From NCBI RefSeq assembly GCF_003050935.1, contig NZ_QAOX01000001.1, positions 806,001 to 870,000 on the forward strand: a stretch of DNA of 64,000 nucleotides. The letters are read 5' to 3'. Shown one piece after another: positions 6,366 to 49,163 of this stretch. A program made the translations under genes and the position numbers. The notes beneath the pieces were generated by a model that did no database searches, had not been told where the DNA came from, and saw only the letters and a list, made by a program, of their open reading frames with translations. This DNA comes from Luteibacter sp. OK325. GTDB taxonomy: Bacteria; Pseudomonadota; Gammaproteobacteria; Xanthomonadales; Rhodanobacteraceae. The first letter of the stretch is position 1. The number at the start of each line of letters is the position of its first letter.

Positions 6366-6395
6366 CGGTGTTCTGCGGTATCGCGACGCCTTCGT

Positions 6396-6476
6396 GTAGG
6401 AGCCGATTCATCGGCGATTGGGTGCTGGCCCCATTCTGGCCCGCTGGCGCGGGATCGCCGATGAATCGGCTCCTAC
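6396..6476. repeat. REP/BIME palindrome, copy 1
   Basis: Two 23-base arms (6396-6418 and 6454-6476) are perfect reverse complements around a 35-base spacer. Each arm starts with the tetranucleotide GTAG followed by GAGCCGATTCATCGGCGAT, which itself folds (GCCGAT-TC-ATCGGC). GTAG-headed hairpins are the hallmark of REP elements mobilised by RAYT transposases in Stenotrophomonas and Pseudomonas. Sitting between yfhM and pbpC, it could also shield or attenuate the transcript. Confidence 0.85.
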
Positions 6477-6483
6477 ATGGTCG

Positions 6484-12516: not shown

Positions 12517-12877
12517 GTTCCCTTCCGATCCTTTGATTCGTATGACGGCGTGATGCCGTGCCTGCGAATACGTCAACGCCGGCCACGCGCCCAGGGCGGT
12601 GTTCCGGCAGCCTTCCTACGTATCCCCAAGGTGATGCTGCGCCCGACCCCTGTCGTGACAGCGTCCGGATTCTGACATAGCGCCGCCATGCTTCGGGAGA
12701 TTTCGGGGCGCTTGTGCGTGAAGCTGGTTTGCAATGCATTCGCAATAGAACAAATCGGAAATCACTTACGCATTTCACGTCACGTGATCGGTCTCACGCC
12801 TCCGCGCTCGAAGCGTTCAACGGACGCATCACTTGCGATATCGTTGGCCGGCACGGGGACGAGCGAAGGGGAAATGG
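12517..12877. other. Divergent intergenic region, yfhM / HWE kinase
   Basis: A 361-base stretch with no gene I can support. It must hold the yfhM promoter and that of the kinase gene. A short AT-richer segment around 12725-12770 (TTGCAATGCATTCGCAATAG) is the likeliest promoter-bearing part, but no element is clear enough to name. Confidence 0.4.
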
Positions 12878-24625: not shown

Positions 24626-25621
24626 ATGAAACACGCGTTGCGCATCATCGGAGGCCTGCTGGTGGTCGGCACGATCGTCATCGTGCTGTTCTTCTGGCTC
24701 GACCGCACCGAAACCACCACCGACGCCTATATCACCGGACGCCTTCATCCGATCGCCCCGCGGGTCACTGGCACCGTGGTCGCCCTGCACGTGGACGATA
24801 ACCAGCACGTCAAGGCGGGCGAGGTATTACTGGAACTGGACACCCGCGACTTCGATGTCAGGGTGGAACAGGCGCGTGCCGAGATCGACCGGGCCAAGGG
24901 GCAGGTGGCCAGCGCCGACGCCCAGATCGTCGAAGCCAACGCCTCGATCGTGGCCGCCCAGGCCAGCGTGGAGAAGACCGTCCTCGACCTGAAGCGCGCC
25001 AGCGAGCTGGTCAATGAAACGCCCCGCGGCGTTTCCCAACAGGAATACGACGCGGCCAAGGCAGCGTCCGACTCCGCGCGGGCGAACAAGGCGAGTGCGG
25101 ACGCACGCAAGGTCGCCGCGACGGCCGCGAGCGAGTCGGCCCGGGCGCAGGTGGCCACTGCCGAAGCCTCATTGCACGACGCCAACCTGGCCTACGGCTA
25201 TACCAAGGTACTGGCTCCGGTCAGCGGCTACGTCGGGCGGCGGTCGGTCGAGGTGGGCGCACGCGTCAACGCAGGCCAGACCCTGCTTTCGATCGTCTCC
25301 GACCAGGTGTGGGTCGTGGCCAACTTCAAGGAGACCCAGCTGCATGGCATGAAGCGGGGCACCGAAGCCCGGATGACCATCGACGCACTTCCGGACCTCA
25401 CCTTCATCGGTCATGTGGACAGCCTCTCGCCCGCCTCGGGCTCGCAGTTCGCACTACTGCCGCCGGACAACGCCACCGGCAACTTTACCAAGGTGGTCCA
25501 GCGCGTTCCGGTGAAGATCCTGTTCACCGACGATGACCTGCGCCGCTACCGGGAACGGCTGGCTCCCGGGCTATCGACCATCGTCAAGATCCGTGTGCCA
25601 GAAGACGGAACCGGGTTATGA
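24626..25621 (+). CDS. EmrA/HlyD-type membrane fusion protein, pump 1
   Basis: A 331-residue periplasmic adaptor with one N-terminal anchor helix (about 7-26), a biotinyl-lipoyl half motif (VAPRV-type TGTVVALHVDDNQHVKAGEVLLELD), an Ala-rich coiled-coil hairpin (about 75-185), the second lipoyl half (APVSGYVGRRSVEVG) and the FKETQLHGMKRG barrel region typical of EmrA. It bridges the inner-membrane transporter and the outer membrane channel. GGAGGAAAGG precedes the ATG. It is the first gene of a three-gene overlapping operon. Confidence 0.9.
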   Translation: MKHALRIIGGLLVVGTIVIVLFFWLDRTETTTDAYITGRLHPIAPRVTGTVVALHVDDNQHVKAGEVLLELDTRDFDVRVEQARAEIDRAKGQVASADAQIVEANASIVAAQASVEKTVLDLKRASELVNETPRGVSQQEYDAAKAASDSARANKASADARKVAATAASESARAQVATAEASLHDANLAYGYTKVLAPVSGYVGRRSVEVGARVNAGQTLLSIVSDQVWVVANFKETQLHGMKRGTEARMTIDALPDLTFIGHVDSLSPASGSQFALLPPDNATGNFTKVVQRVPVKILFTDDDLRRYRERLAPGLSTIVKIRVPEDGTGL

Positions 25622-27045
25622 CATCGCGGGCGCTCGTGCTGGCGTTACTCTCCACCTGCCTGGGCGGCTGCGTGCTGGGCCCCGATTACCAGCGGCCGGA
25701 TACCCCGGCGCCGCACGCCTGGAAACAGGCTCCGGCCGACACTGCGCCACTCCCGGACGCCTGGTGGAACCTGTTTGGCGACGACGAGCTTGGTCGGCAC
25801 GTGACCGCCACCCTCGCCGCCAACCAGGACCTTGCCGGGGCGCTGGCCCGCTTCGACCAGAGCCGGGCCTTGCTTGGTGTCGCGCGGGCGGATGAATTCC
25901 CGGACGTGTCGTTTGGACCCGGCTACTCGCGGGGCCGTACCTCCGGAACGGTCGCCAACCGGTTCCCGTACCTCGAGACCACGGTGTGGCAGGCACCTGT
26001 CGAAGTCGCCTATGAAGTGGATCTGTGGGGTCGCGTAAGGCGCAGCGTGGAGGCAGCGGGCGCCGAGATGCAGGGCAGTGCCGACGCGATTGCCGCGGTG
26101 CGCCTGAGCCTTGCCGCATCCACGGTGTCGACCTATCTGTCCTTGCGCAGCAGCGATCGCGAGATCGACATCCTTTCACGCACCGTCGGCCTGCGCGAGG
26201 ACGAACTCAGCCTTGCCGATCGACGAGCGCGCGCCGGCGTCGTGAGCGACCTGGACGTGCTGCGCGCCCGCGCCGAACTGAGCCAGACACGTGCCGACCT
26301 CGCCGACGCGCGTCGACGCCGTGACAACCTCGAGCACGCGCTCGCTGTTCTCGAAGCACGCAACGCGGCGGATTTCACCGTGGCGCCCGTCACGTGGACG
26401 CCCAACGTGCCCGACGTGCCTGCAGGCCTTCCTTCGACCTTGCTGGAGCGGCGCCCCGATGTCGCCAGCGACGAGCGCGCCCTGGCCGCCGCTAGCGCAC
26501 GAATTGGCGTGGCCAGGACAGCATTCTTTCCTTCGGTGAGTCTCACGGCGACGGGGGGACTGGCCAGCGGCCGGCTGGGCGATTTCACTAGCAGCGACAG
26601 CCAGATCTGGTCGATCGGTCCGGTCGTTAATCTGCCGATTTTCGAAGGCGGGCGCAATCGTTCACGCCTGGAAGCTGCGGAAGCCGCCTACCGCGGCGCG
26701 GAGGCCAAATGGCGCCAGACCGGCATCACTGCCTTTCGGGAAGTACAGGACGCACTGGCCGATACCACATGGTTGCGTGAGCGCGGCGCCGCACTGGATG
26801 CCACCGTCGATGCGTCAACGGCAGCGGCGAAGCTTTCCCGATCACGCTACGACCGCGGCCTGGCCGGCTATTTCGAGGTGGTGGATTCCGAACGCCAGGC
26901 GCTTGGCAGCCAGCGCGCCGTCGTCGAGAACGACCAGCAGCGACTTCTCGCCGCCGTCTCGCTGATCAAGGCCCTCGGCGGGGGCTGGAAGGAGGGCGAT
27001 GCGGTGCCACGCCAGCCCGACACCGCTGCGTCCGCCTCGCCATGA
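25618..27045 (+). CDS. Outer membrane efflux lipoprotein (NodT family), pump 1
   Basis: A 475-residue TolC/OprM-like channel. The N-terminus MTSRALVLALLSTCLGGCVL has lipobox LGGC, so it should be lipid-anchored in the outer membrane. Two OEP repeats follow, with GPDYQRPDTPAP, long coiled coils, LLERRPDVASDERALAAASARIGVA and RSRYDRGLAGYFEVVDSER. The ATG overlaps the adaptor stop as ATGA and its own stop overlaps the next start, so the three subunits are translationally coupled. Confidence 0.93.
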   Translation: MTSRALVLALLSTCLGGCVLGPDYQRPDTPAPHAWKQAPADTAPLPDAWWNLFGDDELGRHVTATLAANQDLAGALARFDQSRALLGVARADEFPDVSFGPGYSRGRTSGTVANRFPYLETTVWQAPVEVAYEVDLWGRVRRSVEAAGAEMQGSADAIAAVRLSLAASTVSTYLSLRSSDREIDILSRTVGLREDELSLADRRARAGVVSDLDVLRARAELSQTRADLADARRRRDNLEHALAVLEARNAADFTVAPVTWTPNVPDVPAGLPSTLLERRPDVASDERALAAASARIGVARTAFFPSVSLTATGGLASGRLGDFTSSDSQIWSIGPVVNLPIFEGGRNRSRLEAAEAAYRGAEAKWRQTGITAFREVQDALADTTWLRERGAALDATVDASTAAAKLSRSRYDRGLAGYFEVVDSERQALGSQRAVVENDQQRLLAAVSLIKALGGGWKEGDAVPRQPDTAASASP

Positions 27046-28679
27046 ACGCAACCGCTTCCACGGCAACCGCAGCGCCCGCGCCCCCGGCCAACCTCCCCTG
27101 GCTGGGCATCGTTGCCGTGCTGGTCGGTGCGCTGGCGACCACGCTGACCTCGCGACTCACGTCGATCGGCCTGGCCGATGTGCGCGGGGCCGTCAGCGCC
27201 GGCTTCGACGAAGGCGCGTGGATTCCCACCGCATTCACCGCCTCGCAGATGATGATCGGACCATTGTCGATCTTCCTCGGTCGCGCATTCACGCCACGCC
27301 GCGTGCTCCTGGTCGGGTGCGTCGTCTACGGCGTGGCGTTGTTCCTCATTCCCTTCGCGCCGGACCTGCGCGTGCTGCTCGTGCTGCAATGCCTGGCGGG
27401 GCTCGGGTCCGGCACGTTCATCCCGCTGACGGCCGCTTTCATCCTGACCGCGCTGCCGAAGAGCCTGTGGCCATGGGGCCTGGCCGCGTACGCGATGAAC
27501 ATCGTGCTCGGTCTCAACCTGGCCTCGACCCTCGAAGGCTGGTACGTGGAACACATCACCTGGGACTGGATTTTCTGGCAGAACACCGTCGTCGCCGTCC
27601 CTCTTTTCGTGCTCTATTGGTTCGGGCTACGACGACTGCCGATCGACCGCGACTACCTGCGCAACGGCGACTTCCGCGGCATGCTCATGGGCGCCGCAGG
27701 GTTCACGCTCATCTTCATCGCCCTGGACCAGGGCGATCGCCTTGACTGGTTTTCTTCCACGTTGATCGTCACCCTGCTCGCGCTGGGCGTCATATGCATG
27801 GGCTTGTTTCTTCTCCATGAATCGACGCTCGATACACCTAGCGTGGACTTCGGCCTGCTCGCGCGGCGAAATTTAATCCTGCTGATCGTGCTGGTGCTGG
27901 CGACACGTTTCATGGTTACCGCCAGTAACACGCTGGTCGCGAACTACCTGATCCAGGTGCGCGGCCTGCGTCCGGAAGAGGTCGGCAATGCGGCACTGTG
28001 GGTCGCGCTGCCTCAACTGGTCATCGCGCCGACCGTCGCCTGGCTGCTCAACCGCGTGGATGCGCGTTTCGCGATCGGCACGGGCTTCACCATCGCTGCC
28101 ACGGGCTTTCTTCTGGCCACCGGCATCACCTCCGAATGGACGGAATCGAACTTCAGTCTCGCCCTCCTCCTGCAGGCCATCGGCGAAACACTGGAACTCA
28201 CGGCCGTCATCTACTTCTTCGGCCACCATGTCGGGCCGGCCGATGGCATCACCTTCGGGGCGATCATCCAGACCGCACGCCTGTTCGGCGGGCAATTGGG
28301 AACATCGGTGCTGGTCACGTTCACGCGGAAAGCCGAACAGTTGCACTCGAACCTCATCGGCCAGCATGTCATCGCCGGGGAACCCTTGACCGACGCCCGG
28401 ATCGTCGCCTACACGCAGATTTTCGGCGCATCCACCCAGGGCACCGGAGCGCCCGCGGCGCGAGGGACCGGACTGCTGCTCAGCGCGGTGCGTGGCCAGG
28501 CCTACACCTTGTCGATCCTCGACGGCTTTCTCCTCGCCGCCACGGTCGGCACCGTCGCGGTCCTGCTGGTGCTGTGCCTGCGCGAGCCGCCCGTGCTCGT
28601 CAATCCCGTGGCCGTGCCGCCACTACCGCCACCGGAGGAACGTGACACCGTGTCGCACTCCGTTCACCCCGCTTCGTGA
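27042..28679 (+). CDS. EmrB-type DHA2 MFS multidrug transporter, pump 1
   Basis: A 545-residue drug:proton antiporter with 14 predicted helices, of the DHA2 family that works with EmrA-like adaptors. Segments: DEGAWIPTAFTASQMMIGPLSIFLGRAFTPRR, GLGSGTFIPLTAAF and WYVEHITWDWIFWQNTV. Export substrates are probably hydrophobic drugs or fatty or aromatic acids. No dedicated regulator gene is next to the operon. A hairpin at 28686-28705 follows the stop. Confidence 0.9.
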   Translation: MNATASTATAAPAPPANLPWLGIVAVLVGALATTLTSRLTSIGLADVRGAVSAGFDEGAWIPTAFTASQMMIGPLSIFLGRAFTPRRVLLVGCVVYGVALFLIPFAPDLRVLLVLQCLAGLGSGTFIPLTAAFILTALPKSLWPWGLAAYAMNIVLGLNLASTLEGWYVEHITWDWIFWQNTVVAVPLFVLYWFGLRRLPIDRDYLRNGDFRGMLMGAAGFTLIFIALDQGDRLDWFSSTLIVTLLALGVICMGLFLLHESTLDTPSVDFGLLARRNLILLIVLVLATRFMVTASNTLVANYLIQVRGLRPEEVGNAALWVALPQLVIAPTVAWLLNRVDARFAIGTGFTIAATGFLLATGITSEWTESNFSLALLLQAIGETLELTAVIYFFGHHVGPADGITFGAIIQTARLFGGQLGTSVLVTFTRKAEQLHSNLIGQHVIAGEPLTDARIVAYTQIFGASTQGTGAPAARGTGLLLSAVRGQAYTLSILDGFLLAATVGTVAVLLVLCLREPPVLVNPVAVPPLPPPEERDTVSHSVHPAS

Positions 28680-28728: not shown

Positions 28729-29112
28729 GTGCGTCGTGGTCTGGCACGAAACCGCTGGTTGGGATGGATGGCGCTGGTCGCCGTCTGGCTCACCGTGCTG
28801 GCGCCGTCGGTCTCGCGGACCGTGTCGGCAGCTTTCGTGTTCCCGGACCTCGGTGCCTGGTGTGAAGGGGCGCCGGGCGAACACCACGGTGCCACGGCCA
28901 CCCACGATTCGGGTGCCATGGGAGATGGCGCTGCCTGCGGCTACTGCACGCTTTTCGCGCAGACGCCCGCGCTGGGTGCCGTTTTCTACATCGGCCATGC
29001 CCCGCCCTCTCCCGGCTACGTCCCCGCCGACCTTCCGGTCGCACGGGCGCATGTGCCAGTGGCCATCCTGCACGCCCCACCACGAGGTCCGCCGGTCGCC
29101 GCGCACGCCTGA
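28729..29112 (+). CDS. DUF2946 family small membrane/periplasmic protein
   Basis: A 127-residue protein with an N-terminal hydrophobic segment (about residues 12-36) and the DUF2946 hallmark CGYCTLFAQTP preceded by a His-rich stretch (GEHHGATATHDSG). The paired Cys and His residues suggest metal handling; members are commonly beside TonB-dependent copper receptors, as here. The GTG start at 28729 has AGGGGA before it. The function is inferred from context only. Confidence 0.7.
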   Translation: MRRGLARNRWLGWMALVAVWLTVLAPSVSRTVSAAFVFPDLGAWCEGAPGEHHGATATHDSGAMGDGAACGYCTLFAQTPALGAVFYIGHAPPSPGYVPADLPVARAHVPVAILHAPPRGPPVAAHA

Positions 29113-29158
29113 TCGCTTCCGATCCCGCCGTACGCCACCGACCCACGGACCTATCGCC

Positions 29159-31456
29159 ATGACCCTGTTCCCCACGGATGGACGCGCCCTTGCGCGCGCC
29201 GTCGCCTGCGCCATCGGCGCTACCTTCCTGCCTGTCCACGCCGCGGACGGCCCCGATGATCCGCAACGCGCGACCACGCTGCGCGAGGTGCGGGTATCGG
29301 CTGCGAGCCACGGGACGCCCGTGGACCCCGATCTGCCCTCCGCCGTCGAGACGATCACCGCCGCACAGCTCGACCATCTCAACGTGATCAATGCCGAGGA
29401 TGCGTTGAAGTACCTGCCCTCCTTCGGCATCCGCAAGCGTTTCACCGGCGACGAGAACGCGACCTTCTCCGTGCGCGGCACCAGTAACCAGCAGAGCGCG
29501 CGCGGGCTGGTCTACCTCGACGGCCTGCTGCTCTCCAACCTGCTCGGCAACAACTGGGCGAACCCGCCGCGCTGGTCGATGGCCTTCCCGCAGAACCTGT
29601 CGCGCGTCGACGTGATCTACGGCGCTTACTCGGCGCTCTACCCCGGCAACGCCATCGGCGCGACCGTGCTGATGACCACGCGCATGCCGGAGAAGCTCGA
29701 GGTCACCGGTGACGTGCAGGCGTTCACCCAACACGTACACACCTACGGTGTGGATCGCGACTACGGCGGCAGCCGGCAGACCGCGACCCTCGGTGACCGC
29801 GACGGTCGCTTCGCCTTCCTGATCGGGGTGTCCCATCTTCAGGCCAACGGTCAGCCGCTGGTCTACGCCACGCAGAATCGCTCTACCTTGCCGGGCACAC
29901 GAAATCCGGTCACCGGCGCCATCGGCGACTCGGGTGCCAGTGGCCTGCCGCGAGAAGTACTCGGCATCAACAGCGAGGGCCAGGAGGCGAGCAGCCAGGA
30001 CGAAGCGCACGCGCGCCTGACCTATGACATCACGCCCGAGCTCACTGCGGCGATCACTGCCGGCTACTGGAAGCAGGATCTATCGCACCGTACGGAATCC
30101 TTCCTGCGCGATGCGAACGGCCAGCCCGTGTTGTCGGGGCCGGTGACGATCGGCGGGCAGCAGTACACCGTGCCGGCCAACTTCTTTGCCCCGAGCACAC
30201 GGCAAAGCCGAAACTATCTGTACGGCGTGTCACTGGGAACCCATCGTGATAGCGGATGGAACATCGAAGGCGACGCGTCTTACTTCGACATGGACCGAAA
30301 CCGCGACCGTGTGGCCAATGCCGTGACCGACGATGGCACGGGATTACTCACCGCTGGCGACGGTAGCCGCTGGCGCACCTTCGACCTGCGCGCCAGCCAC
30401 ACTCCCGATAACATCGAACCCAACACGCACTCGGTAAGCTTCGGCTATCACTTCGACGGGTATGCGCTGGATAACGCCACTTACAATCTTGCCAACTGGC
30501 GTAACGGCGACGCGGGCGCGCTGACCAGCGCGAACGGCGGTAGCACGCAAACGCAGGCGGTCTATCTGCAGGACGCGTGGCAGCTGATCGAACGCTGGCG
30601 ACTGACCGTGGGCGCGCGCTATGAGCAATGGCGTGCATTCGACGGGTCGCGTTCCACGTCGACGGCCACGGTCGCTTACCCCGAGCGAAAGGAATCGCAT
30701 ACCTCGCCCAAGGCCTCGCTGGCCTATGACGCCAGTGATACCGTGACTGTTCGCCTGTCCGCTGCGCGGGCCTACCGCTTTCCGACGGTGAACGAGCTGT
30801 TCCAGGGTACGTTCAACGGCATCGCACTGATCAACAACGATCCCAACCTGAAGCCTGAGAACGACCTTTCGCGTGAGTTGTCCACGGAGTGGTACCGACC
30901 CAACGGCGTGGCGCGATTCACGGTCTACCGCAGCGATACACGCAATACGCTGTTCAGCCAGACCGACACCACGGTGTTTCCAAATGTCACCAGCGTGCAG
31001 AACGTCGGCCTCGTGCGCACGCGCGGCGCCGAAGCCAGCTACGACGGCAGTGGCGTCTGGTGGTCGACATTCGACCTGAGCGCCAACGCGGCCTATACGC
31101 AGGCGACAACGGTGAGCAATGCGCGAAATCCGGCATCCGAAGGCAAGCAGTTCTATCGGATTCCGCGCTGGCGCGCGAACCTGGTCGGCACGTACCACGC
31201 CAGCGAGCATGTCGCCATGACCCTCGCCGGGCGCTATTCCGGTCGTCAGTACAACACCCTCGATCACAGCGACGTTCATCCGGATACGTTCGGTGGCGCG
31301 AGCGCGTTCCTCACCTTCGATGCCAAACTCACGTGGAAGGTGAGCGAGCACGTGGAGCTAGGCGCCGGCGTCGACAACCTCACGAATCGTCGCTACTACG
31401 TGTATTACCCCTACCCTTCGCGAAGCTACCTGGTGGAGGCGAAGTTCCGGCTCTGA
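29159..31456 (+). CDS. TonB-dependent outer membrane receptor
   Basis: A 765-residue receptor: signal peptide to about residue 23 (VHAADG), TonB box TLREVRVSA, plug domain (AVETITAAQLDHLNVINAEDALKYLP in part, then FSVRGTSNQQSARGLVYLDG, VIYGAYSALYPGNAIGA), and a 22-strand barrel ending in the canonical aromatic YLVEAKFRL. The longer open frame reaching 28736 reads through the DUF2946 gene and is not used; the ATG at 29159 gives a proper signal peptide. The neighbouring DUF2946 gene suggests copper or another metal complex as ligand, but a siderophore is possible. Its 3' end overlaps the convergent lanKC gene by 31 bases. Confidence 0.88.
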   Translation: MTLFPTDGRALARAVACAIGATFLPVHAADGPDDPQRATTLREVRVSAASHGTPVDPDLPSAVETITAAQLDHLNVINAEDALKYLPSFGIRKRFTGDENATFSVRGTSNQQSARGLVYLDGLLLSNLLGNNWANPPRWSMAFPQNLSRVDVIYGAYSALYPGNAIGATVLMTTRMPEKLEVTGDVQAFTQHVHTYGVDRDYGGSRQTATLGDRDGRFAFLIGVSHLQANGQPLVYATQNRSTLPGTRNPVTGAIGDSGASGLPREVLGINSEGQEASSQDEAHARLTYDITPELTAAITAGYWKQDLSHRTESFLRDANGQPVLSGPVTIGGQQYTVPANFFAPSTRQSRNYLYGVSLGTHRDSGWNIEGDASYFDMDRNRDRVANAVTDDGTGLLTAGDGSRWRTFDLRASHTPDNIEPNTHSVSFGYHFDGYALDNATYNLANWRNGDAGALTSANGGSTQTQAVYLQDAWQLIERWRLTVGARYEQWRAFDGSRSTSTATVAYPERKESHTSPKASLAYDASDTVTVRLSAARAYRFPTVNELFQGTFNGIALINNDPNLKPENDLSRELSTEWYRPNGVARFTVYRSDTRNTLFSQTDTTVFPNVTSVQNVGLVRTRGAEASYDGSGVWWSTFDLSANAAYTQATTVSNARNPASEGKQFYRIPRWRANLVGTYHASEHVAMTLAGRYSGRQYNTLDHSDVHPDTFGGASAFLTFDAKLTWKVSEHVELGAGVDNLTNRRYYVYYPYPSRSYLVEAKFRL

Positions 31457-34116
31457 CGTACCGGTGCCGGCAGGTGTTCGTCCAGCATGAAGGCGGCCGG
31501 AGCCCCGTGCTGCAATCGGTCGAAGAACGAGGCGACGCCCGCCCCTCCCGTGGCCAGATCGCAACTGATGCGCAGCAGTTCGGTGCCCGGTACGGCGAGC
31601 CCTCCATCGCGCCGGATGAGGAAGGGCTCGATGCCGTGTGCGGCGTGATGCGCCGCATCGCGATAGAACCTGCCGCGCTCAGGGACAAACTGCGCGAGGT
31701 CGAGAAGGGTCTCGCCGATGCCGGCCAGACCATCGAACAGGCCCGGGCTGACCGCGTGCCGGCGTAGCAGGTCGCCCTCGCTGGCGAGCAGCACGTCCCG
31801 ATAATGCGGGTCGCCGGTGCAGGCGAGGAACCGGGCGACAACGGCGAGGATGCCAGCCGTGCCTTGACAGAGGTACGGAACCCACGTGGAAGAGCCAATG
31901 AACATCGGCCACGTCGGGGCGCCATCGGCGTTCTTTCGCCGCTGCGCGAGGTCGAAGGCGAGGCCACCTGTGGCTCCGCGCAGGAAACGTTCGTCACCCA
32001 CGGCGACGTGCAGATGAAGAAGGAAAAGAGCGATGCCTGCGGCGCCGTAGGCGAGGCCCACGGGCTGTTGTATACCGTCAGGCCATCGCAGGCTGCCATC
32101 GTCTTCCTTGATCGCGACAGACAGCAAAGCGTCCCCCGCCTGCCCCGCCGCCGTGAGAAAGTGCTCGTCGGCGGTTTCATGCCAGGCCTTGATACGAGCC
32201 AGGCCCCAGCCCGCGATGCCCTCGTGCAGGCCCGGACAAGAACGAATCGTGTTCGCGGAAAATTCGCCGCGCAGCAGATCGGTCGCGCGGGTCGTCTCGC
32301 CGGCCTCGAAGAGCACCCACGCGATTCCCGCGTCGCCCGACATGAGGCTGACCCCGCGTCGGTGGCCCGCATCGACGCCGGCGAGCAGGTAATCGTGCAG
32401 TCCTTCGGGCGGCTCCCTCTGGCTACGCAGGTACGCATGCAGGACGCCGGCCGCCCCATGAGCCACACCCCAGGGATGGCTTTCGAAGACCTCGGGGGCG
32501 GCGGGCACGAACCGGTCCGGTCGGGCACGTTCGGCCTGCGCGGTCACATAGGCGAACAGCGCATCCGCTTGAGCGGGTGGGTGGGGGACCGCGTCGTTAT
32601 GATGAGGCACCGACATGGCGCCTGTCTGCACGCACGCCAGGGAGCCACGTAAGGTCACCATCACCGACGTCGGCAGGGGTCGTTTCCAGGGGTTCGGATC
32701 CAGCAGCCGAGCGATGGCCTCGACGACGGCGGGCGGATAACCCATGTCGTCACTCATCCATCGGGCGAAGCGCAACGCGACATCGCGGTCCAGAGGCAGC
32801 ATCGCGTTGACCGGGATCATCGCGGCAAGCAGGTTGGCCCCGAAGGCGTAGACGTCTTCGCTTTCCGCCTCTGCGTGGTCCCGGGGCGCCGGGCTCCCTG
32901 AAGCGAAGCCCGGCGTGCTAAGCAGCAATGGGGCGTCGAGCCGCTGCTCGACGGCAGCTTCCAGGTCGATCAGGCGCACTTCACCGTTGGCGTCCACGAT
33001 GATGTTGTGAAATGAGAGGTCGCCCAGCGATATGCCGACGGCATGCACCTTCGCGATCGCATCGGCGAGGCGGCTGAATACCGCGACGACATCGGCAAGG
33101 AAGCGCGCCACGTCATCTCGCGTCGCCTGCGTCTTCAGCCAGGGATAGCGCTTGCCGAGCCAGATTCGCAGGGTGTCGCCACGCAGGTATTCCTCGACCA
33201 GGAAGCTGTGTTCCCATTCTTCGAAGTACGCGATCGGCTGGGGTGCGACGCGCAGGGCAGCGAGGCAACGCAGCAGACGGAATTCCTTGCGCAGGCTCTC
33301 CTTTGCCGTCTGCCGATCGCCAATGAACGGCCTGGCTTCCTTGATGACAACACGCTGGCCCTCGTCGAGATCGTCAGCGAGATACACGCCGCCCGCGGCG
33401 GAGAAAGCCAGTGCTTTGTAAACACGGTAGCGACCGGCTCCCAGCAGGACGGAGGACGCCGGAGCCGCGGGAGCTGCCGTTCCGAAGGGATCGCGCAACC
33501 AGTCGGGAAGGCGGAATCGCGGCGACCGGTCATCCTCTTCGACGTCGTCGTCCGGCCGTCTCAACAGCCATTCAACACGCCCGCCCGCCGAGATACGAGA
33601 GTCCGACACGATGCCGCCGTAGCGGTAGTGGAGTACGCGAGAATCCGCGTAACGACGATCGGTAAGCACATACGGGCCGACGTAGCCGGACAACGCTGCG
33701 TGGAGGTTCGCAATGACCTGACGAAAATCGTCGACATTTCGCGGATATACCGTGATGAACTTGCCCGAGCCACCTCGGGGCCACCGCTTGCCGTTGATGG
33801 CGCCGAGCATCCTGTGGTCGGCGGCGAACTTGAACGCCGTGCCGGATGTGCCGAGTGTGGCGGCGGTGATGGACAACACGATATGCGCGGTGGAGGCGAT
33901 CGAGGATATGTGAATCTTCCAACCCTGCATCGGCAGCACGGTGTCCGGTGCCTGGCAGTGCACCCAGATTCCGGACCGTTCGATCGTCCAGTGTGCCGCC
34001 AGCGCTCGCCGTACCGGAACGATGAAGTCGTCCTCGAGCACGGGGCGACTGGCATAGGGTTCAAAGAACTCCCGATCGACCGCGGTGTACTGCCATAGCT
34101 GGGCCCTTCGTTCCAT
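31426..34116 (-). CDS. lanKC: Class III lanthipeptide synthetase (lyase-kinase-LanC)
   Basis: An 896-residue three-domain enzyme that phosphorylates Ser/Thr of a precursor, eliminates the phosphate and adds Cys to form (methyl)lanthionine or labionin rings. Lyase domain, residues about 1-190: GWKIH with Lys67/His69, SGKFITVYP, GPYVLTDRRY, YRYGGI. Kinase domain, about 225-490: VVIKEARP (Lys259), GDLSFHN (Asp366, Asn371), IDLE (Asp384). LanC-like toroid, about 545-870, has seven GxxG repeats such as VAHGAAG, LAYGAAG, LCQGTAG and LFDGLAG. Of the Zn ligands of classical LanC only Cys750 remains; the CHG motif is LFDG, as in class III and not class IV enzymes. A start at 34116 is preferred over the ATG at 34134 or TTG at 34146. 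It is the last gene of the locus, 82 bases after the peptide gene. Confidence 0.93.
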   Translation of the reverse strand: MERRAQLWQYTAVDREFFEPYASRPVLEDDFIVPVRRALAAHWTIERSGIWVHCQAPDTVLPMQGWKIHISSIASTAHIVLSITAATLGTSGTAFKFAADHRMLGAINGKRWPRGGSGKFITVYPRNVDDFRQVIANLHAALSGYVGPYVLTDRRYADSRVLHYRYGGIVSDSRISAGGRVEWLLRRPDDDVEEDDRSPRFRLPDWLRDPFGTAAPAAPASSVLLGAGRYRVYKALAFSAAGGVYLADDLDEGQRVVIKEARPFIGDRQTAKESLRKEFRLLRCLAALRVAPQPIAYFEEWEHSFLVEEYLRGDTLRIWLGKRYPWLKTQATRDDVARFLADVVAVFSRLADAIAKVHAVGISLGDLSFHNIIVDANGEVRLIDLEAAVEQRLDAPLLLSTPGFASGSPAPRDHAEAESEDVYAFGANLLAAMIPVNAMLPLDRDVALRFARWMSDDMGYPPAVVEAIARLLDPNPWKRPLPTSVMVTLRGSLACVQTGAMSVPHHNDAVPHPPAQADALFAYVTAQAERARPDRFVPAAPEVFESHPWGVAHGAAGVLHAYLRSQREPPEGLHDYLLAGVDAGHRRGVSLMSGDAGIAWVLFEAGETTRATDLLRGEFSANTIRSCPGLHEGIAGWGLARIKAWHETADEHFLTAAGQAGDALLSVAIKEDDGSLRWPDGIQQPVGLAYGAAGIALFLLHLHVAVGDERFLRGATGGLAFDLAQRRKNADGAPTWPMFIGSSTWVPYLCQGTAGILAVVARFLACTGDPHYRDVLLASEGDLLRRHAVSPGLFDGLAGIGETLLDLAQFVPERGRFYRDAAHHAAHGIEPFLIRRDGGLAVPGTELLRISCDLATGGAGVASFFDRLQHGAPAAFMLDEHLPAPVRQSRNFASTR

Positions 34117-34198: not shown

Positions 34199-34330
34199 CT
34201 AGCCTGCGAATCCGTCCATCTGATGTTTCAAGCAACAATGCATACTGGCGGTCGATCCGCACTGACCGGTGTTGCCGCGATCCCAGGCCGGGTCGGTCGG
34301 CAGGTTCTGCAGGTCGAGTATGTTCGGCAT
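34199..34330 (-). CDS. lanA: Class III lanthipeptide precursor peptide
   Basis: A 43-residue ORF. It begins MPNILDLQNLPTDPAW, matching the class III leader rule of a hydrophobic-Leu-Asp/Glu-Leu-Gln box (ILDLQ at 4-8); labyrinthopeptin precursors, from memory, begin MASILELQ. The C-terminal part contains Thr21, Cys24, Ser26, Thr27, Ser29, Cys32 and Cys33, with the run GSTASMHCC and the tail LKHQMDGFAG. Ser26-x2-Ser29-x3-Cys33 is the spacing used for a labionin ring. The ATG at 34330 has an almost perfect ribosome binding site, AAGGAGG, at 34335-34341 (minus strand). The next gene downstream is the cognate synthetase. The frame was derived by hand from the reverse complement; cleavage site and ring pattern are unknown. 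Confidence 0.88.
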   Translation of the reverse strand: MPNILDLQNLPTDPAWDRGNTGQCGSTASMHCCLKHQMDGFAG

Positions 34331-34406
34331 GGCTCCTCCTTTGATTGAGCGATGAGACGCACTGCGCATAAAGCGCGGGGTGCGATCCGAATCTAGGGTG
34401 CGTCTA

Positions 34407-34467: not shown

Positions 34468-35886
34468 CTACCCGGCATGACCGGTTTCGGTCGCTTTTGC
34501 TGTCCGGAATCGGACAGTGTCGTCCGCACCCGGACGCATGGGCAAGCGCACGGTGGCCACCGCACCTCTTCCATCGCAGCGCGCCGCCAGCTCTACCGTT
34601 CCGGCATGCGCTTCGACAATGAGGCGCGTCAGCGTCAAGCCAATACCCGAGCCTTCCGGTTTGGTGGTGAAGAAGGGAACGAAGATACCGTCGCTCGGCG
34701 GCAACCCGATACCGTCATCCTCGATCGTCACACGCACATGATCGCCCTCGGTGCCCCAATCGACACGGACGCCACCGTCCGTGCCCAGGGTTGCTTCGAC
34801 CGCGTTTCGCAATAGATTGATGAAGGCCTGGCCGAGCTGGTCCTCGTCGCCGTCGAGCGTGATCGGCTCACCACCGTTTATATCGATCGGCTTGCGTTGC
34901 TCAAGCAGCGCGAAGCGCCGCAGGGCGACGTCCAGGCGGAACGGATGCCGTTGTAGCGGAGGCAGCCGCGCGAGCCGGCCGTAACCGGAGAGAAAGCGTG
35001 TCAGCGAGTGCGCGCGCCGGCCGATCACCTCCAGGCCGAGACGAAGTTCTTCGTCGAGCGTGGTCCGATCCTGTGCGTCGAGCAGGGCCGACAGGCTACC
35101 GGCTAGCGAGCCTATGGGGGCGAGCGAGTTGTTCAGCTCGTGGCTCAGCACACGTATCAGGCGTTGCCACGCACGGCGCTCCTCCTCGCTCAGCGCGGCG
35201 CTCAGATCGTGAAGGATCACCATCGTGTGCTCTCGCCCTTCGCTGTACCAGACTGCCCGGCGCACAGCCCATCGACCATTCGCCGAAGAGAACCGATGTG
35301 TGAGGATGGCGCCATCCGCAGCGCCCAGGGGCTCCGCCAGGCCCAGTGACGTTACGTCTCGTCCGACCACGGCGGCGCGTTCCGCGCCGATCAGGCGGCG
35401 GGCAGCCGAATTGATAAATGTCAGGTGGCCTTTCTCGTCGACCACGAAGACAGCGCTGTGCAGCGCGACCAGGGTCTTGCCCAGGAACCGGGACGTCTCC
35501 GTACGTTTGCGCCTCCCACCACGCAGATCGTCGGTCAACAGGTTCATGTCAGCGATCAGCCCCTGCAGCGGGTCGCGTCCGGGACGGACCCGTCCACGCA
35601 TGCTGTAGTCGCCTTCGCGGATAGCGAACAGGAGGTCGAGAACGGTACCGAGTGTGGTCACCAGGCGGCTGCCACCTATCCATCCGACGAGAAGACTCAG
35701 GCAGAACCCGGCACCGAAGATGCTCCCTCGCGCGCCCACCGAAAGACCATCGAGGAAGACCACGAGCGTGCCACCTGCGACAAGCGGGGTCGCGAAAATC
35801 CCTGCCCACAGTGCAGCGTCGATGCGCAGCGTCACGGAACGGTCGCGCACCGTCGTCGTCTCACGGGGGTGCTGACGAAAGGTCAT
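34468..35886 (-). CDS. Intramembrane-type sensor histidine kinase (NtrY-like)
   Basis: A 472-residue kinase with two membrane helices (about 24-45 and 54-72) separated by a loop of only about 8 residues, so it has no periplasmic sensor domain. A HAMP-like linker (LLFAIREGDYSMRGRV) and a PAS domain (VFVVDEKGHLTFINSAARRLIGAERAAVVGR) precede the H box LIRVLSHELNNSLAPIGS, N box NLLRNAVEATLG, DDGIGLP and TTKPEGSGIGLTLTRLI. The ATG at 35886 starts 10 bases after the regulator stop with GAGGGGG before it; 34 upstream codons of open frame overlap that gene and were dropped. Very short loops are typical of kinases that sense through an ABC transporter, and one is encoded in this operon. Confidence 0.88.
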   Translation of the reverse strand: MTFRQHPRETTTVRDRSVTLRIDAALWAGIFATPLVAGGTLVVFLDGLSVGARGSIFGAGFCLSLLVGWIGGSRLVTTLGTVLDLLFAIREGDYSMRGRVRPGRDPLQGLIADMNLLTDDLRGGRRKRTETSRFLGKTLVALHSAVFVVDEKGHLTFINSAARRLIGAERAAVVGRDVTSLGLAEPLGAADGAILTHRFSSANGRWAVRRAVWYSEGREHTMVILHDLSAALSEEERRAWQRLIRVLSHELNNSLAPIGSLAGSLSALLDAQDRTTLDEELRLGLEVIGRRAHSLTRFLSGYGRLARLPPLQRHPFRLDVALRRFALLEQRKPIDINGGEPITLDGDEDQLGQAFINLLRNAVEATLGTDGGVRVDWGTEGDHVRVTIEDDGIGLPPSDGIFVPFFTTKPEGSGIGLTLTRLIVEAHAGTVELAARCDGRGAVATVRLPMRPGADDTVRFRTAKATETGHAG

Positions 35887-35896
35887 GCCCGCCCCC

Positions 35897-37273
35897 TCAC
35901 TCGACGGGTTCGAAGCCGTAGCGGACGCGGTGTTTGTCGAGCCGGCGATACAACGACTGCCTTGAGATGCCGAGCGCATCGGCGGCACGCTGCAGATTGT
36001 GGTCGTTTCGATCCAGGGCGTTCCGTATGAGCATTTCTTCCGCTTCCGGTAGTGTGAGCCGGTCCAGCAGGAGCGGGGCGTCCGCGGCCCGGCACAGGTT
36101 CAGGCCGTCCACGTCGATCTCATCCCGTTCGGCCAGCAGGACCGCACGCTCCACCGCATGTTCCAACTCGCGGACGTTGCCCGGCCACTCGTAGGCACGC
36201 ATCGCCCGCTCGGCGGAGGAGGCCAGGAACATGCTGCCGCGGCCGCGGCGACGGCATTCGCGCAGCATGAAGTGACGCGCAAGCGGAACGATATCCTCCG
36301 CCCGCTCGCGCAAGGCGGGCAAGCGTATCTGCATGGCATTCAGGCGATAGAGAAGATCCCGCCGGAACCGGTCGGCGCGAACCGCGGCATCCATGTCTGC
36401 ATTGGTCACCGAAATAACGCGGACATTGACCCGGTGCGTGCATGTCGAGCCGGACCGCTCCAGCTCACCTTCTTCAAGCACACGCAGCAGCTTGACCTGA
36501 TGGGGGATGGGAATATTGCCAATCTCCTCCAGGATCAGGCTTCCGCCTTGCGCCAGCTCGAAGCGACCCGGGCGTGGTCGTGGTTCGTTGTCGCCGAACA
36601 TCTCGTCAACGAAGCGCGATTCGGGGAGGCTACCCATGTCCACCCGGATGACCGGCCCTTCGGCGCGGGATGACATGGCGTGGATCTCGCGCGCCAGCAA
36701 GGACTTTCCGGTTCCGTTCTCACCCAGGATGAGGACGTTCCCGTCACCGGCCGCAAGACGCGATGCCAGCTTCATCACCTCTCGCATCGCAGACGATTCC
36801 GAGGTGCGCAGCACGTCGTTCATGTCCCTGCCTAGTGCGTTCTCTGCGCGAAGACGCCGATTTTCTTCGCGGATATCGCGCAATCCGATCTGGCTGCGCA
36901 CCGTATGCAGGATGCGCTCGTTGCTCCAGGGTTTCTCGATGAAATCCGCCGCGCCCAGTCGCATGGCACGTACGGCCAGTTCGACGTTCCCCCAGCCAGT
37001 CATCGCCACCAGCGGAAGGTCGGGTAGCTCTTCGCGCAGGCGCGCGATGAGCTCGAGCCCTTCGTGGCCGGAGGTGGTGTCCGCGGTGTAGTTGAGGTCG
37101 AGTACCGCGCAGGAGAACTCGACGCGCGATACCGCGTCGAGGGCCGCACCTGGCGACGCAACCTGCACCGACGGGATGTTCGCGGACTTGAAAAGAAGGC
37201 GCAGCGAAACGAGAACATCGGCATGGTCATCGACGATGAGCACGGGGAGGGCGAAGGCAGGACGCTGGGTCAT
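35897..37273 (-). CDS. NtrC-like response regulator lacking the GAFTGA loop
   Basis: A 458-residue response regulator with receiver (about 10-125; phosphoacceptor Asp59 in VLDLN, Asp15/Asp16, Thr92, Lys114), AAA+ domain (about 160-395; Walker A GENGTGK at 184-190) and Fis-type HTH at the C-terminus (NLQRAADALGISRQSLYRRL). Where the sigma54-contact loop GAFTGA should be, the sequence goes straight from DEMFGDNE to PRPRPGRFE, so the loop is deleted. Walker B reads LILEEIGN where FLDEIGD is usual. It therefore probably regulates sigma70-type promoters, as R. capsulatus NtrC does. Its ATG overlaps the permease stop (ATGA). The likely target is the peptide promoter with TGTCGCGA repeats. Confidence 0.88.
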   Translation of the reverse strand: MTQRPAFALPVLIVDDHADVLVSLRLLFKSANIPSVQVASPGAALDAVSRVEFSCAVLDLNYTADTTSGHEGLELIARLREELPDLPLVAMTGWGNVELAVRAMRLGAADFIEKPWSNERILHTVRSQIGLRDIREENRRLRAENALGRDMNDVLRTSESSAMREVMKLASRLAAGDGNVLILGENGTGKSLLAREIHAMSSRAEGPVIRVDMGSLPESRFVDEMFGDNEPRPRPGRFELAQGGSLILEEIGNIPIPHQVKLLRVLEEGELERSGSTCTHRVNVRVISVTNADMDAAVRADRFRRDLLYRLNAMQIRLPALRERAEDIVPLARHFMLRECRRRGRGSMFLASSAERAMRAYEWPGNVRELEHAVERAVLLAERDEIDVDGLNLCRAADAPLLLDRLTLPEAEEMLIRNALDRNDHNLQRAADALGISRQSLYRRLDKHRVRYGFEPVE

Positions 37274-39672
37274 GAATGGGTTCCCTCGTTGCGCAGGATC
37301 GAGGCGGGTCGCACGACGGCAGCACGCAACGACGGCAACGCCACCGCCGTCAGAGCCGCGACCATCACCAGCAGGGCGACCGCGGCGACCACGCCGACAT
37401 CGATCGACCCGGTCTCGACCGCCGGATGCGCGAGGTTGCGTTCGAGAATAATGGCGGCAACCAGGCCGAGTGCGATACCGGGCATGGCCATGCCGAGGCC
37501 GCGTGACAGGAGACGGCCGAGCTGGTCCATGGGCGTCGCGCCGAGCGCGTCGCGCAGGGCGATGTCACGAAGGCCGCTGGTCACCTCCAGTGACTGGACC
37601 GCGTACAGGCCAATGCATGCGAGCGCGAGTGCCATGCCGGCGAACACTGCGGCGAGCGCCGCATTGCGCCGCGTCTGTGCGGTCGCCTGGCGGGCGAGCT
37701 GCCGGAACGACTGCCGGTGCCCCGTTGCAAGGCCAGGAGCGGCTCGCCGGACGAGCTTCTGTAGATCCTGCGCAGCGACGGCCTCCTGGCCAGACCCGCG
37801 AACGATGACGAACGTCGGTGCGAAGCGCCGGACGAACGCGTAGACATCGGTGTCCACCTGGGAGAAAGGCAGGAACACCGCTGGCAGCACGGCCTGTTCC
37901 GCACCTGCGAGCCGCGTGTCCGCCACCACGCCCACGATGCGCATGGGTCGGTTCTCGCCATGCGGCGAAGCAGGTGTCACCCAGCCGCCTATGCCGCGAC
38001 TATCGACGCGATCGAGATAGGCCTGGTTGACCACCGCAACCGGTGGCGTCGTCGCAAGATCGCCAGCTCCGATGGGACGACCGGCAATGAGGTTGATTCC
38101 CATGGACTCCATGGCCCCTGGCGAGATCAATCCGTATTGCAGGTACGACACCTTACCGTTCGGCAGACGGAAGGGCATGAAGAAGCCGCGGCTGACAGGC
38201 AGCCAGGTGGACAGCCCCGCCGAGTCGACCCCCGGCTCACTCATCGCCTCGACGCGGATGATGTCGGTAGCGCGGCGCACGTCGTCGATCTGCGGAAACT
38301 GATTGGCATCCGGATTGATTTCGACAAAACTCGCACCAGTCTGCTCAAAGCCCAGGGATATCCGCATCACTCGCCACATATGGCTTGAGGTGGCCACTCC
38401 AAACACCAACAGCAGGGTTGCGATTGTCGTCTGCACCAGCACAAGCAGGCGACGCGCGCGCTGCGCCAGGCCGACCAGCGATGTCTTACCCGACGCAAAC
38501 TGCATGCGCAGTAGCTGATCCGGTCTCGCACGCAACGACCCGAGCATGGTCGACATCGCGGCGACAGTGACGGAGGCGAGTGCGGCGGCCGCGCAGGCGC
38601 GCCAGTGCAGATCGATCGGTAGCGCCGAGAGGAGCCATGACTCCGGCACGACAGGACGAACGGCGATGACGAGGGTGCGGGCAATCGGCAGCCCGATGAC
38701 TAGGGCGCCGATGCTGATCGCGACGACATCCAAGATCGGCAGAAGTCTTGGGCGCCAACCCAGCCCACCGAAGGCTATTGTCAGGCAGGTTTCCTGAGTG
38801 CGCTGCAACGCCCGGGTGAGCATGAGGTTGGATAGATTCATGCCGGCGATGGCCAGGACAAGCAATGAACAGCCAAAGAAGATGAGCACCACAGGCCTTG
38901 CGTTGCTGGTCAGCACAACGTCGAGCGGAGTCGTGCCGTACATCGGGACACAAAGGCACCCCGGACGCTGCGGCAGATTGCTGGCCAGGAGCGTTGCCCT
39001 TATCTGGCGAGTCACGCTATCGCCCGAAACCCCGGGAGCCAGTCGTGCGACAGCGATCAGGTTCGCGGCGCTGTCACGAGACATGTTTGCCGCGGAGAGC
39101 GGTATCAGGAGGTCGATGTCGGCCAGGAGCCGGTAGTCCGACGGCAGCACCCCGCGTACGATCATCGCCGTACCATTGACCCCGACAGGACGCCCCACCA
39201 CGTGCGGGTCGGCGCCGAACCCATCACGCCACAACGCGTGAGACAGCATGATTCCGCGTTCGAACGCGATCGAGGGATCCTCCGGAAGCACCGACGGTAC
39301 GCCCAGCGTCGGCAGGAAACCCGCGTCGACACGCTGGGCGCGTGCAAGCCTGACGCGTTCGCCGAAACGAAGGTTCACCGATTCCGGCACCTGGGCGGCA
39401 CCATGTGAGGTCGCGCCTGGCGGAAGGCCGATGGCGTCGTAGAACATCGGCGATGCCGCGCGACTGGCAGGGTCGCGATCTTCCTCGCCGTACATGACGA
39501 TCCTGGCGTGATGGACGAACGGTGGCGTCCTTAACAGGGATTCGACCATGGTGAGGGCGCTGGTGAAGGCGGCCAGGCCAATCCCGAGCGTCAACGAGGC
39601 AAGTGGAAGGAAGCATCTCGGACGCCAGAGGGCGCGCCATGCCCGCGGCAGCCCGTCGACCGGCGACCTCAC
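37270..39672 (-). CDS. FtsX/MacB-type ABC transporter permease (duplicated form)
   Basis: An 800-residue permease with two FtsX units. The first has an N-terminal helix (about 20-42), a MacB-like periplasmic domain and three helices around 260-365. The second has a helix at about 408-428 (LLVLVQTTIATLLLVFGV), another periplasmic domain, and three C-terminal helices ending LPSLRAAVVRPASILRNEGTHS. This ADOP-like layout belongs to export or mechanotransmission systems, not to solute uptake. Its GTG start overlaps the ATPase stop (GTGA). In this locus it is the only candidate exporter or immunity transporter for the lanthipeptide. Confidence 0.87.
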   Translation of the reverse strand: MRSPVDGLPRAWRALWRPRCFLPLASLTLGIGLAAFTSALTMVESLLRTPPFVHHARIVMYGEEDRDPASRAASPMFYDAIGLPPGATSHGAAQVPESVNLRFGERVRLARAQRVDAGFLPTLGVPSVLPEDPSIAFERGIMLSHALWRDGFGADPHVVGRPVGVNGTAMIVRGVLPSDYRLLADIDLLIPLSAANMSRDSAANLIAVARLAPGVSGDSVTRQIRATLLASNLPQRPGCLCVPMYGTTPLDVVLTSNARPVVLIFFGCSLLVLAIAGMNLSNLMLTRALQRTQETCLTIAFGGLGWRPRLLPILDVVAISIGALVIGLPIARTLVIAVRPVVPESWLLSALPIDLHWRACAAAALASVTVAAMSTMLGSLRARPDQLLRMQFASGKTSLVGLAQRARRLLVLVQTTIATLLLVFGVATSSHMWRVMRISLGFEQTGASFVEINPDANQFPQIDDVRRATDIIRVEAMSEPGVDSAGLSTWLPVSRGFFMPFRLPNGKVSYLQYGLISPGAMESMGINLIAGRPIGAGDLATTPPVAVVNQAYLDRVDSRGIGGWVTPASPHGENRPMRIVGVVADTRLAGAEQAVLPAVFLPFSQVDTDVYAFVRRFAPTFVIVRGSGQEAVAAQDLQKLVRRAAPGLATGHRQSFRQLARQATAQTRRNAALAAVFAGMALALACIGLYAVQSLEVTSGLRDIALRDALGATPMDQLGRLLSRGLGMAMPGIALGLVAAIILERNLAHPAVETGSIDVGVVAAVALLVMVAALTAVALPSLRAAVVRPASILRNEGTHS

Positions 39673-40442
39673 GGAAACGACTCCGTGCTTCGACGTTCGT
39701 CCAGACCCGCCTCGGCTTCGCGCTGGCGCTGGCGGTACGTCGTTTCGTCGATGATGCAGCCGTCGAGCAGCCGGATGGTGCGGTCGGCCACACTGCTGAA
39801 CCGCTCATCATGGGTGACCATGCAGATCGTCCGACCCGACGCGTGCAGGCGACTGAGAAGGGCCATCACCGTCTCGCCGTTGCGCAGGTCGAGATTGCCC
39901 GTTGGCTCGTCGGCAAGCAGGATGGACGGCTCGCCGGCGAGCGCCCGGGCGACAGCCACGCGCTGCTGCTGCCCTCCGGAAAGCTGATCGGGATAGTGGC
40001 GCGTGCGGTGTGCCATGCCGACATCGGCCAACGCGCTGGCTGCACGATCCGCACGCTCGCGGCGACTCATGCCATCGCGGAACGACAGCGGCAATTCGAC
40101 ATTCTCAATAACCGTCATGTCGCCGATCAGGTTGAAAGCCTGGAAGACGAAACCGATGTGCTGGTTTCGCAGGCGTGCCCGGGCGCGTCTGCCCAGGCCG
40201 GACATCGACTGTCCCAGAAAGCGAAATGTCCCGTAGGTCGGTATGTCGAGCACGCCCATCAGGGACAGCAGCGTGGTTTTCCCGCAACCGGACGGCCCGG
40301 CGATCGAGACAAACTCGCCCCGACGAATATCGAGGTGGATGTCGCTGAGGACATGGACTTCCATCGCCCCTATGTCGAACACCTTGCCGATGCCGCGCAT
40401 CTCGATCACCGCGGGAACGAGAGCCGATTGCACCGTCACCAC
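39669..40442 (-). CDS. MacB/LolD-type ABC transporter ATPase
   Basis: About 257 residues with Walker A GPSGCGKTT, Q-loop FVFQAFNLIGDMT, signature LSGGQQQR, Walker B ILLADEPT and VTHDERF. It powers the adjacent permease. There is no C39 peptidase domain, so it cannot remove a lanthipeptide leader. The start is uncertain: the frame opens at TTG 40547, but GTG codons at 40442, 40439 and 40433, just after GGTGAGG, fit family alignments better. It is the first gene of the operon ATPase-permease-regulator-kinase. Confidence 0.85.
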   Translation of the reverse strand: MVTVQSALVPAVIEMRGIGKVFDIGAMEVHVLSDIHLDIRRGEFVSIAGPSGCGKTTLLSLMGVLDIPTYGTFRFLGQSMSGLGRRARARLRNQHIGFVFQAFNLIGDMTVIENVELPLSFRDGMSRRERADRAASALADVGMAHRTRHYPDQLSGGQQQRVAVARALAGEPSILLADEPTGNLDLRNGETVMALLSRLHASGRTICMVTHDERFSSVADRTIRLLDGCIIDETTYRQRQREAEAGLDERRSTESFP

Positions 40443-43777: not shown

Positions 43778-43919
43778 CAAGCCATCCTGCCGGGCACAAG
43801 CCGGGAGATCCTTACAGCCGACCCGACGAAACGCCAGGGTCGCAGCGTCGCACACCGATATGGCCGGCGGTTCCCGCCGCGTAGTTTCGTGGTCCCCTCG
43901 TGCACGAGAACCACCAAGC

Positions 43920-45587: not shown

Positions 45588-45697
45588 AGAGTCCGGCTTC
45601 ATCTGAGGGTGGCGGCCCACAACCATCCACGGCGTGCGCCGCTCCCTCCAGTGGCCACGTCTTCCTACCGTAACGATCCCCCCAAAGGAGCGTCACG

Positions 45698-49086: not shown

Positions 49087-49163
49087 TGGATGTCACGCAA
49101 ACAACCGAACGCGCAGCCGATCGTTGGCTGCGCTCCCCGAAACACACTCGCCATGGAATGCCG

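Follow-up and report, generated by a model that had tools for sequence, protein, structure and literature searches.

A predicted class III lanthipeptide precursor in a conserved gene cassette of Luteibacter

A short gene, lanA, in a 64,000-nucleotide stretch of DNA from Luteibacter sp. OK325 (the whole of which is called the window here) in all likelihood codes for a labyrinthopeptin-like, ring-bearing peptide, and the adjoining gene for the enzyme that makes it. The assignment of lanA as a class III lanthipeptide precursor is solid at the level of peptide class, judged from sequence. Importantly, the gene is part of a set whose order (ATPase, permease, response regulator, histidine kinase, lanA and the synthetase gene LanKC) was the same in the window and in all 20 relatives that we fetched. 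We consider it probable that this cassette works as a class III lanthipeptide system complete in itself, whose own pump serves for Bce-like sensing.

The precursor and its synthetase

The lanA frame (34199..34330, minus strand) translates as MPNILDLQNLPTDPAWDRGNTGQCGSTASMHCCLKHQMDGFAG followed by a stop codon. Residues 4–8 form the leader box ILDLQ, Ser26, Ser29 and Cys33 are the predicted ring residues, and there are two extra cysteines, Cys24 and Cys32. The Shine-Dalgarno sequence AAGGAGG occupies 34335..34341 (minus strand), and AAAGGAGG stands upstream of the ATG with a short spacer between. Translation thus bore out a preliminary description of this DNA in its 43-residue minus-strand frame with AAGGAGG and an ILDLQ box, and in its placement of Thr21, Cys24, Ser26, Thr27, Ser29, Cys32 and Cys33; the peptide does not end in STASMHCC, as had been thought, since ten more residues, LKHQMDGFAG, come after. 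The gene that was said to follow directly and to encode a lyase-kinase-LanC protein lies 82 bp away (31426..34116, minus strand), and RamC_N (lyase), Pkinase and LANC_like domains were all found in its product.

This 896-residue protein, LanKC, scored 701 bits against the class III LanKC model NF038151 (cut-off 575) and remained below the cut-off of the class IV LanL model NF038150 (552 versus 650 bits), and its best sequence matches in the PDB were class III LanKC enzymes. The eight lyase residues named for ThurKC (PMC10604976) were identical in the window enzyme (8/8) and conserved in 20 of 20 genus enzymes in our alignment, with ThurKC residues mapped by a chain offset of 3, at which all 11 letters fit. 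In the LanC-like domain, Cys750, Phe794 and Asp795 occupy the zinc-ligand sites of NisC, instead of Cys-Cys-His, and Phe-Asp at two of these sites is also the arrangement in ThurKC. Among the 20 genus enzymes, the first site was cysteine in the window enzyme only (Cys750; codon at 31867–31869) and arginine in 15, the second was Phe794 in 15, and the third was Asp795 in 13 and glutamate in the other seven. With the lyase residues kept and the zinc-ligand set absent, LanKC is by its sequence a metal-independent enzyme of the class III type.

Conserved core and predicted rings

Our search covered 23 genomes of the genus. LanKC turned up in 21, above the cut-off in 20 and in two pieces in G012, and was absent from G011 and G016. 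Luteibacter sp. dw_328 matched the window at 77% over LanKC, and a scan of genome contigs gave only two related loci. Conservation in synthetase-bearing relatives had been named beforehand as the test by which the preliminary description could fail, and it held. First, all 21 loci (the window plus the 20 fetched) have a precursor frame of 40–45 codons, 40–168 bp upstream of LanKC. Second, the core motif [ST]-x2-S-x3-C is present in 20 of 21 precursors, the exception being L076 with S-x2-S-x2-C. Third, 19 of 21 carry the L-x-L-Q leader box, from which L076 and L080 diverge. Our first ORF filter missed six loci, four with leader boxes that have no acidic residue and two with divergent leaders, and a three-frame reading recovered them. 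Finally, Leu5, Leu7, Gln8, Ser29, Cys33 and Asp39, the last in the tail after STASMHCC, were invariant in an alignment of 19 precursors (L091 included; L076 and L080 left out as divergent).

The retention of [ST]-x2-S-x3-C in 20 of 21 precursors makes the labionin spacing the conserved core, and Ser26/Ser29/Cys33 fits the S-x2-S-x(2-5)-C pattern by which class III cores are recognized. The Ser26-x2-Ser29-x3-Cys33 triad had been singled out correctly, as the motif recurs in these loci and Cys33, not Cys32, is invariant; Cys24 and Cys32 were seen in no precursor but the window's (1/21), and neither of the two nearest relatives has them, so that the suggested part of up to three cysteines in the product stays tentative. 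Labyrinthopeptin A2 contains STGSLFACC, and the likeness that had been drawn to it is off by one residue at the double cysteine.

LanKC would bind the ILDLQ leader of LanA, phosphorylate and then eliminate the Ser/Thr residues of the core, and, through its metal-independent cyclase domain, link Cys33 to dehydrated Ser29 and/or Ser26. The ring predicted for the product, a labionin or else just one lanthionine, would span Ser26-x2-Ser29-x3-Cys33, and Cys24 and Cys32 of the window species would be free or joined as a disulfide. A plain lanthionine from Ser26 or Ser29 to Cys33, with the other serine present as dehydroalanine or unmodified, is a real possibility that we rate somewhat short of probable, and it would leave precursor and enzyme the same. 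Class III peptides with the spacing S-x2-S-x3-C differ in what they form, some a labionin and others a lanthionine (PMC7268733, PMC11251773), and the two nearest relatives have threonine at the first motif position, a residue less to be expected there if a labionin forms. A single lanthionine would require just one of the two serines, however, whereas the first position is serine in 18 of the 20 motif-bearing precursors and the second serine is invariant in the 19 aligned.

Positions 28 and 34 (window numbering) may bear on a further bond. The 12 precursors with Cys28 have Ser34 (ten) or Cys34 (two), and eight of the nine without Cys28 have Leu, Ile or Phe at 34; L080, which stops before 34, was scored as being without Ser or Cys there, and position 34 of L076 was placed by its last cysteine. 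The window precursor has Ala28 and Leu34, with Cys24 and Cys32 instead. On a LanKC tree of 20 rows, which leaves out the truncated L091, the two traits each change four times and split the rows identically. When four changes of each trait were placed by branch length in a simulation, the two sets of branches coincided completely in 13 of 200,000 draws (6.5e-5), a value that becomes ~0.01 once ~100 (about 91–136) possible pairs are allowed for; this multiplication was made because the pair was first noticed by eye. A sign test on independent pairs gave p 0.125, four pairs being too few to reach significance. No other pair among 14 core columns had the same split in 18 rows (L091, L076 and L080 omitted), a set on which 28 and 34 change three times each. 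Outside the genus the rule fails in L087, where the cysteine is third in STCSYAGC and glycine comes after the last cysteine.

That residues 28 and 34 change together suggests a second, interlocked crosslink, missing in the window's species. On the simple reading the two residues would be bonded, by a thioether where 34 is serine and by a disulfide where it is cysteine. A 28-34 bond interlocked with 26-29-33 would have an unusual topology, and we know of no class III peptide that combines a labionin with such a bridge. We regard as doubtful the fullest version of this scheme, in which most precursors would carry both the 26/29/33 labionin and a Cys28-to-34 bridge (to dehydrated Ser34 in ten species, to Cys34 in two) and the peptide would also induce its own genes through Bce-like flux sensing in a Gram-negative form.

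The cassette and its regulation

The remaining cassette genes, all on the minus strand, encode a sensor histidine kinase (34468..35886), an NtrC-family response regulator without a GAFTGA loop (35897..37273), a fast-evolving ABC permease of the ADOP type (MacB_PCD/FtsX; 37270..39672) and a MacB/LolD-like ABC transporter ATP-binding protein (39669..40430). Neither these regulatory and transport genes nor the operator figured in the preliminary description. Profile searches found no peptidase-bearing exporter, adaptor or leader protease among the cassette genes. Across the genus genomes the response regulator and LanKC were present or absent together, and the best regulator matches in G011 and G016 had only 42–43% identity, compared to 70% for the G012 orthologue. 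In G011 the genes that flank the cassette lie ~1.1 kb apart with the cassette missing, which is an empty site; the G016 stretch (L101) contains the flanking TonB-dependent receptor gene and not the other flanking gene, so that the empty site is established for G011 only. This receptor (28736..31456 in the window) was considered as part of the cassette and rejected: it is kept in cassette-less G011 and G016 and lies ~320 kb from LanKC in G020, which places it outside the system. Beyond the receptor, plus-strand HlyD-type, outer-membrane-factor and MFS genes occupy 24626–28679, as they do in 12 of the 20 relatives' loci, the remainder of which may end too early or differ.

The cassette genes diverge to different extents. 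Mean pairwise identity was lowest for the permease (0.39) and lanA (0.40), higher for the kinase (0.58), LanKC (0.60), the response regulator (0.68) and the ATPase (0.70), and reached 0.81 for the receptor. When regulator distances were controlled for in partial Mantel tests, a kind of test that is liberal, lanA distances tracked those of LanKC (r 0.53) and the permease (r 0.35; both p about 0.001), tracked those of the kinase weakly (r 0.19, p 0.04) and did not track those of the ATPase (r 0.02); L069, which is near-identical to L072, and L091 were omitted. The permeases were cut to their last 800 residues for the distance and divergence comparisons. Periplasmic domains as the fast part of the permease were not upheld, as identity was even over membrane and outer parts (mean 0.37–0.45), and no peptide-binding domain is singled out by divergence spread in this way. 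By hydropathy, the five permeases examined have about 8 helices (8–10 peaks).

The ATPase-permease pair would export the product or clear it from the membrane. Crude hydropathy gave the kinase two main membrane helices joined by a very short loop, their hydropathy windows lying 6–13 residues apart in 20 of 21 kinases, and no periplasmic sensor domain; the L071 kinase shows one helix owing to the chosen start, and several kinases have weaker peaks past the second helix (residues 73–89 and 134–150 of the window kinase). BceS, the reader of BceAB, is also without an outer domain (PMC10314905), and on the strength of this likeness we propose the pump and the kinase as a sensing pair, in which the kinase would read the state of the pump as BceS reads BceAB.

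The GAFTGA motif was absent from all 21 regulators (the window plus 20 relatives), which separates them from NtrC proper, a sigma-54 activator. A sigma-54 promoter for lanA was set aside because the regulator has no GAFTGA. Some GAFTGA-less regulators act on sigma-70 promoters, for example in Rhodobacter and Caulobacter (PMC10274813). In the window species the proximal palindrome of a putative lanA operator, TGTCCGATTCCGGACA (34501..34516), falls within the 3'-terminal part of the kinase gene, and a distal palindrome, GTCCGGGTGCGGAC (34522..34535), is centred 20 bp from it; GACCGAAACCGGTC (34479..34492) is a weaker, palindrome-like third candidate. At least one GTCC-N6-GGAC palindrome precedes lanA in 21 of 21 loci and two do so in 17, with centres 20 bp apart in 16 and 19 bp in one; the other four loci have a single perfect palindrome.

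Genome-wide searches support a single strict site. The strict tandem palindrome occurs exactly once in 17 of the 23 genus genomes, and by coordinates all 17 sites are ~0.2 kb before lanA; it is absent from G011 and G016, which lack the cassette, and from G010, G014, G018 and G022, which have it. Read backwards as a control, the strict motif gave no match in the 23 genomes. A looser operator pattern recovered all 17 strict sites plus eight scattered matches, those in G014 and G018 lying elsewhere than lanA, against 24 matches for its own backwards control, so that only the strict motif supports one site per genome.

A -10-like element, TAGATT, is present at 34390..34395 (minus strand), and no convincing -35 box was seen by eye in the window. 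The base preceding TAGATT is 111–113 bp from the centre of the proximal palindrome in 16 of 21 loci, a count of TAGATT alone that leaves uncounted the eye-picked variants in the other five, and its distance from the ATG varies. A steady spacing to the palindrome with a varying distance to the ATG points to an operator-to-promoter geometry. The NtrC-type regulator would bind the tandem palindromes and activate, rather than repress, a sigma-70-type lanA promoter from ~110 bp upstream. Transport and flux sensing, like the biological role of the peptide, we infer.

The two-component system and ABC pump might instead be a general antimicrobial-peptide defence module that merely neighbours lanA, senses foreign peptides and has the lanthipeptide as one output. 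Bce-type modules do answer foreign antimicrobial peptides (PMC10314905), and architecture alone cannot separate self from foreign ligands. We nevertheless think such a module unlikely, because the strict operator motif stands solely before lanA in the 23 genomes searched and because the regulator and LanKC come and go together.

Relation to known systems and occurrence

The cassette shares with the labyrinthopeptin, SapB/AmfS and ThurA systems the L-x-L-Q box, the S-x2-S-x3-C core, the lyase-kinase-cyclase order and Phe-Asp in place of two zinc ligands. It differs from them in being gammaproteobacterial, in having one ring triad in a 40–45-residue precursor with a conserved Asp in its C-terminal tail, in the 28/34 pair, from which a second crosslink may be suspected for 12 of the 21 precursors, and in having its own NtrC-type two-component system and MacB-type pump. 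With the Bce modules (BceAB-BceS-BceR) it shares an FtsX-type permease, an ATPase, a kinase and a regulator, all adjacent, and the kinase, going by crude hydropathy, may likewise have no outer sensor domain. A Bce-type module is defined by a ten-helix BceB-type permease together with a kinase and a regulator of the BceS/BceR families. In Luteibacter the permease belongs to the duplicated ADOP type, with about 8 helices predicted from hydropathy, the two-component pair belongs to the NtrB/NtrC kind, and what is controlled is a gene for a lanthipeptide precursor. The cassette may thus work like a Bce module and is not one by family. NtrC sites of R. capsulatus lie far upstream of the promoter, and the NtrC proteins of R. 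capsulatus and Caulobacter resemble the Luteibacter regulator in being AAA+ proteins without the sigma-54 loop that have such distant sites; the Luteibacter regulator differs in that 17 of the 23 genomes have a single strict target site each.

Class III clusters have been seen in this genus before: Table 1 of PMC11165876 gives an antiSMASH class III call for four of five strains of Luteibacter mycovicinus. The type of locus was thus already on record in Luteibacter. Precursor, core motif, regulation and product are not described in the available text of that report, and we found no description of a Luteibacter class III precursor or product in the accessible portions of the open-access literature. 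In Lysobacter, eight class III clusters with three precursors are on record (PMC11451712). Isolated class III peptides came from actinobacteria only as of 2020 (PMC7268733), and the firmicute peptide ThurA was obtained later by reconstitution (PMC10604976). LanKC is rare in Gammaproteobacteria, by our sample of 369 genomes, in which the only match at E <= 1e-100 was the window's own. A single genus that keeps the system in 21 of 23 genomes offers a range of naturally varied cores that share one ring triad, and so gives a direct way to test labionin formation, the part played by the second cysteine and lanthipeptide self-sensing in a Gram-negative organism, with G011 and G016 as natural gene-minus controls.

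The coding status of lanA was assessed in several ways. First, the peptide fell under the cut-off of each of the three curated models that match it: NF033212 (SapB/AmfS; 22.8 versus 25 bits), NF038154 (lanthi_III_a; 17.3 versus 22 bits) and Pfam RamS (19.3 versus 24.3 bits). Second, dN/dS was below 1 in all eight computed pairs (0.17–0.52), one of nine having been left out for unequal length and one partial value of 0 reflecting saturation; for the window against its two nearest relatives it was 0.20–0.45, with synonymous sites near saturation in places. Third, when the 500 bp that precede LanKC were simulated 20,000 times with a first-order Markov model, 16 of the copies contained a 30–80-codon frame with an L-x-L-Q-like box and [ST]xxSxxxC. 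Finally, a precursor profile run against 233 genomes of the family gave a single match, adjacent to LanKC, in each of 19 genus genomes and a weak match in G112, of another genus; it missed the divergent precursors of G004 and G014. That lanA is a chance frame and the true substrate lies elsewhere, a reading favoured by the curated scores, is extremely improbable in view of the dN/dS values, the Markov rate, the placement of the profile matches and the homologous or similarly built frames in 21 of 21 loci.

We also inspected five LanKC genes outside the orthologous set. Three of them, L086, L087 and L090, one from each of three other genera, neighbour an ABC exporter and two distinct MacB/FtsX-type permeases (the LanKC frame of L087 is interrupted), which indicates that the link between a class III synthetase and MacB/FtsX permeases recurs in the family. 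The single downstream gene examined in L089 encodes an ABC exporter, and no such transporter was found among the genes examined around LanKC in L088. Diverse precursor-like frames lie upstream of LanKC in L086, L087 and L090. L088 (G008:C1:2268487-2287611) contains a second, distant LanKC that begins at ~8974, is 32% identical to the window's and sits beside mnmE and yidC; it has its own precursor-like frame ending in SIASSTSTANDGGC, and a similar frame occurs in L089. Elsewhere in the window, a bacterial alpha-2-macroglobulin (2030-residue frame) adjoins a penicillin-binding protein with a BiPBP_C domain at 3999–12576, and TAP-like alpha/beta hydrolase domains are encoded by four plus-strand frames in a row at 43860–50735.
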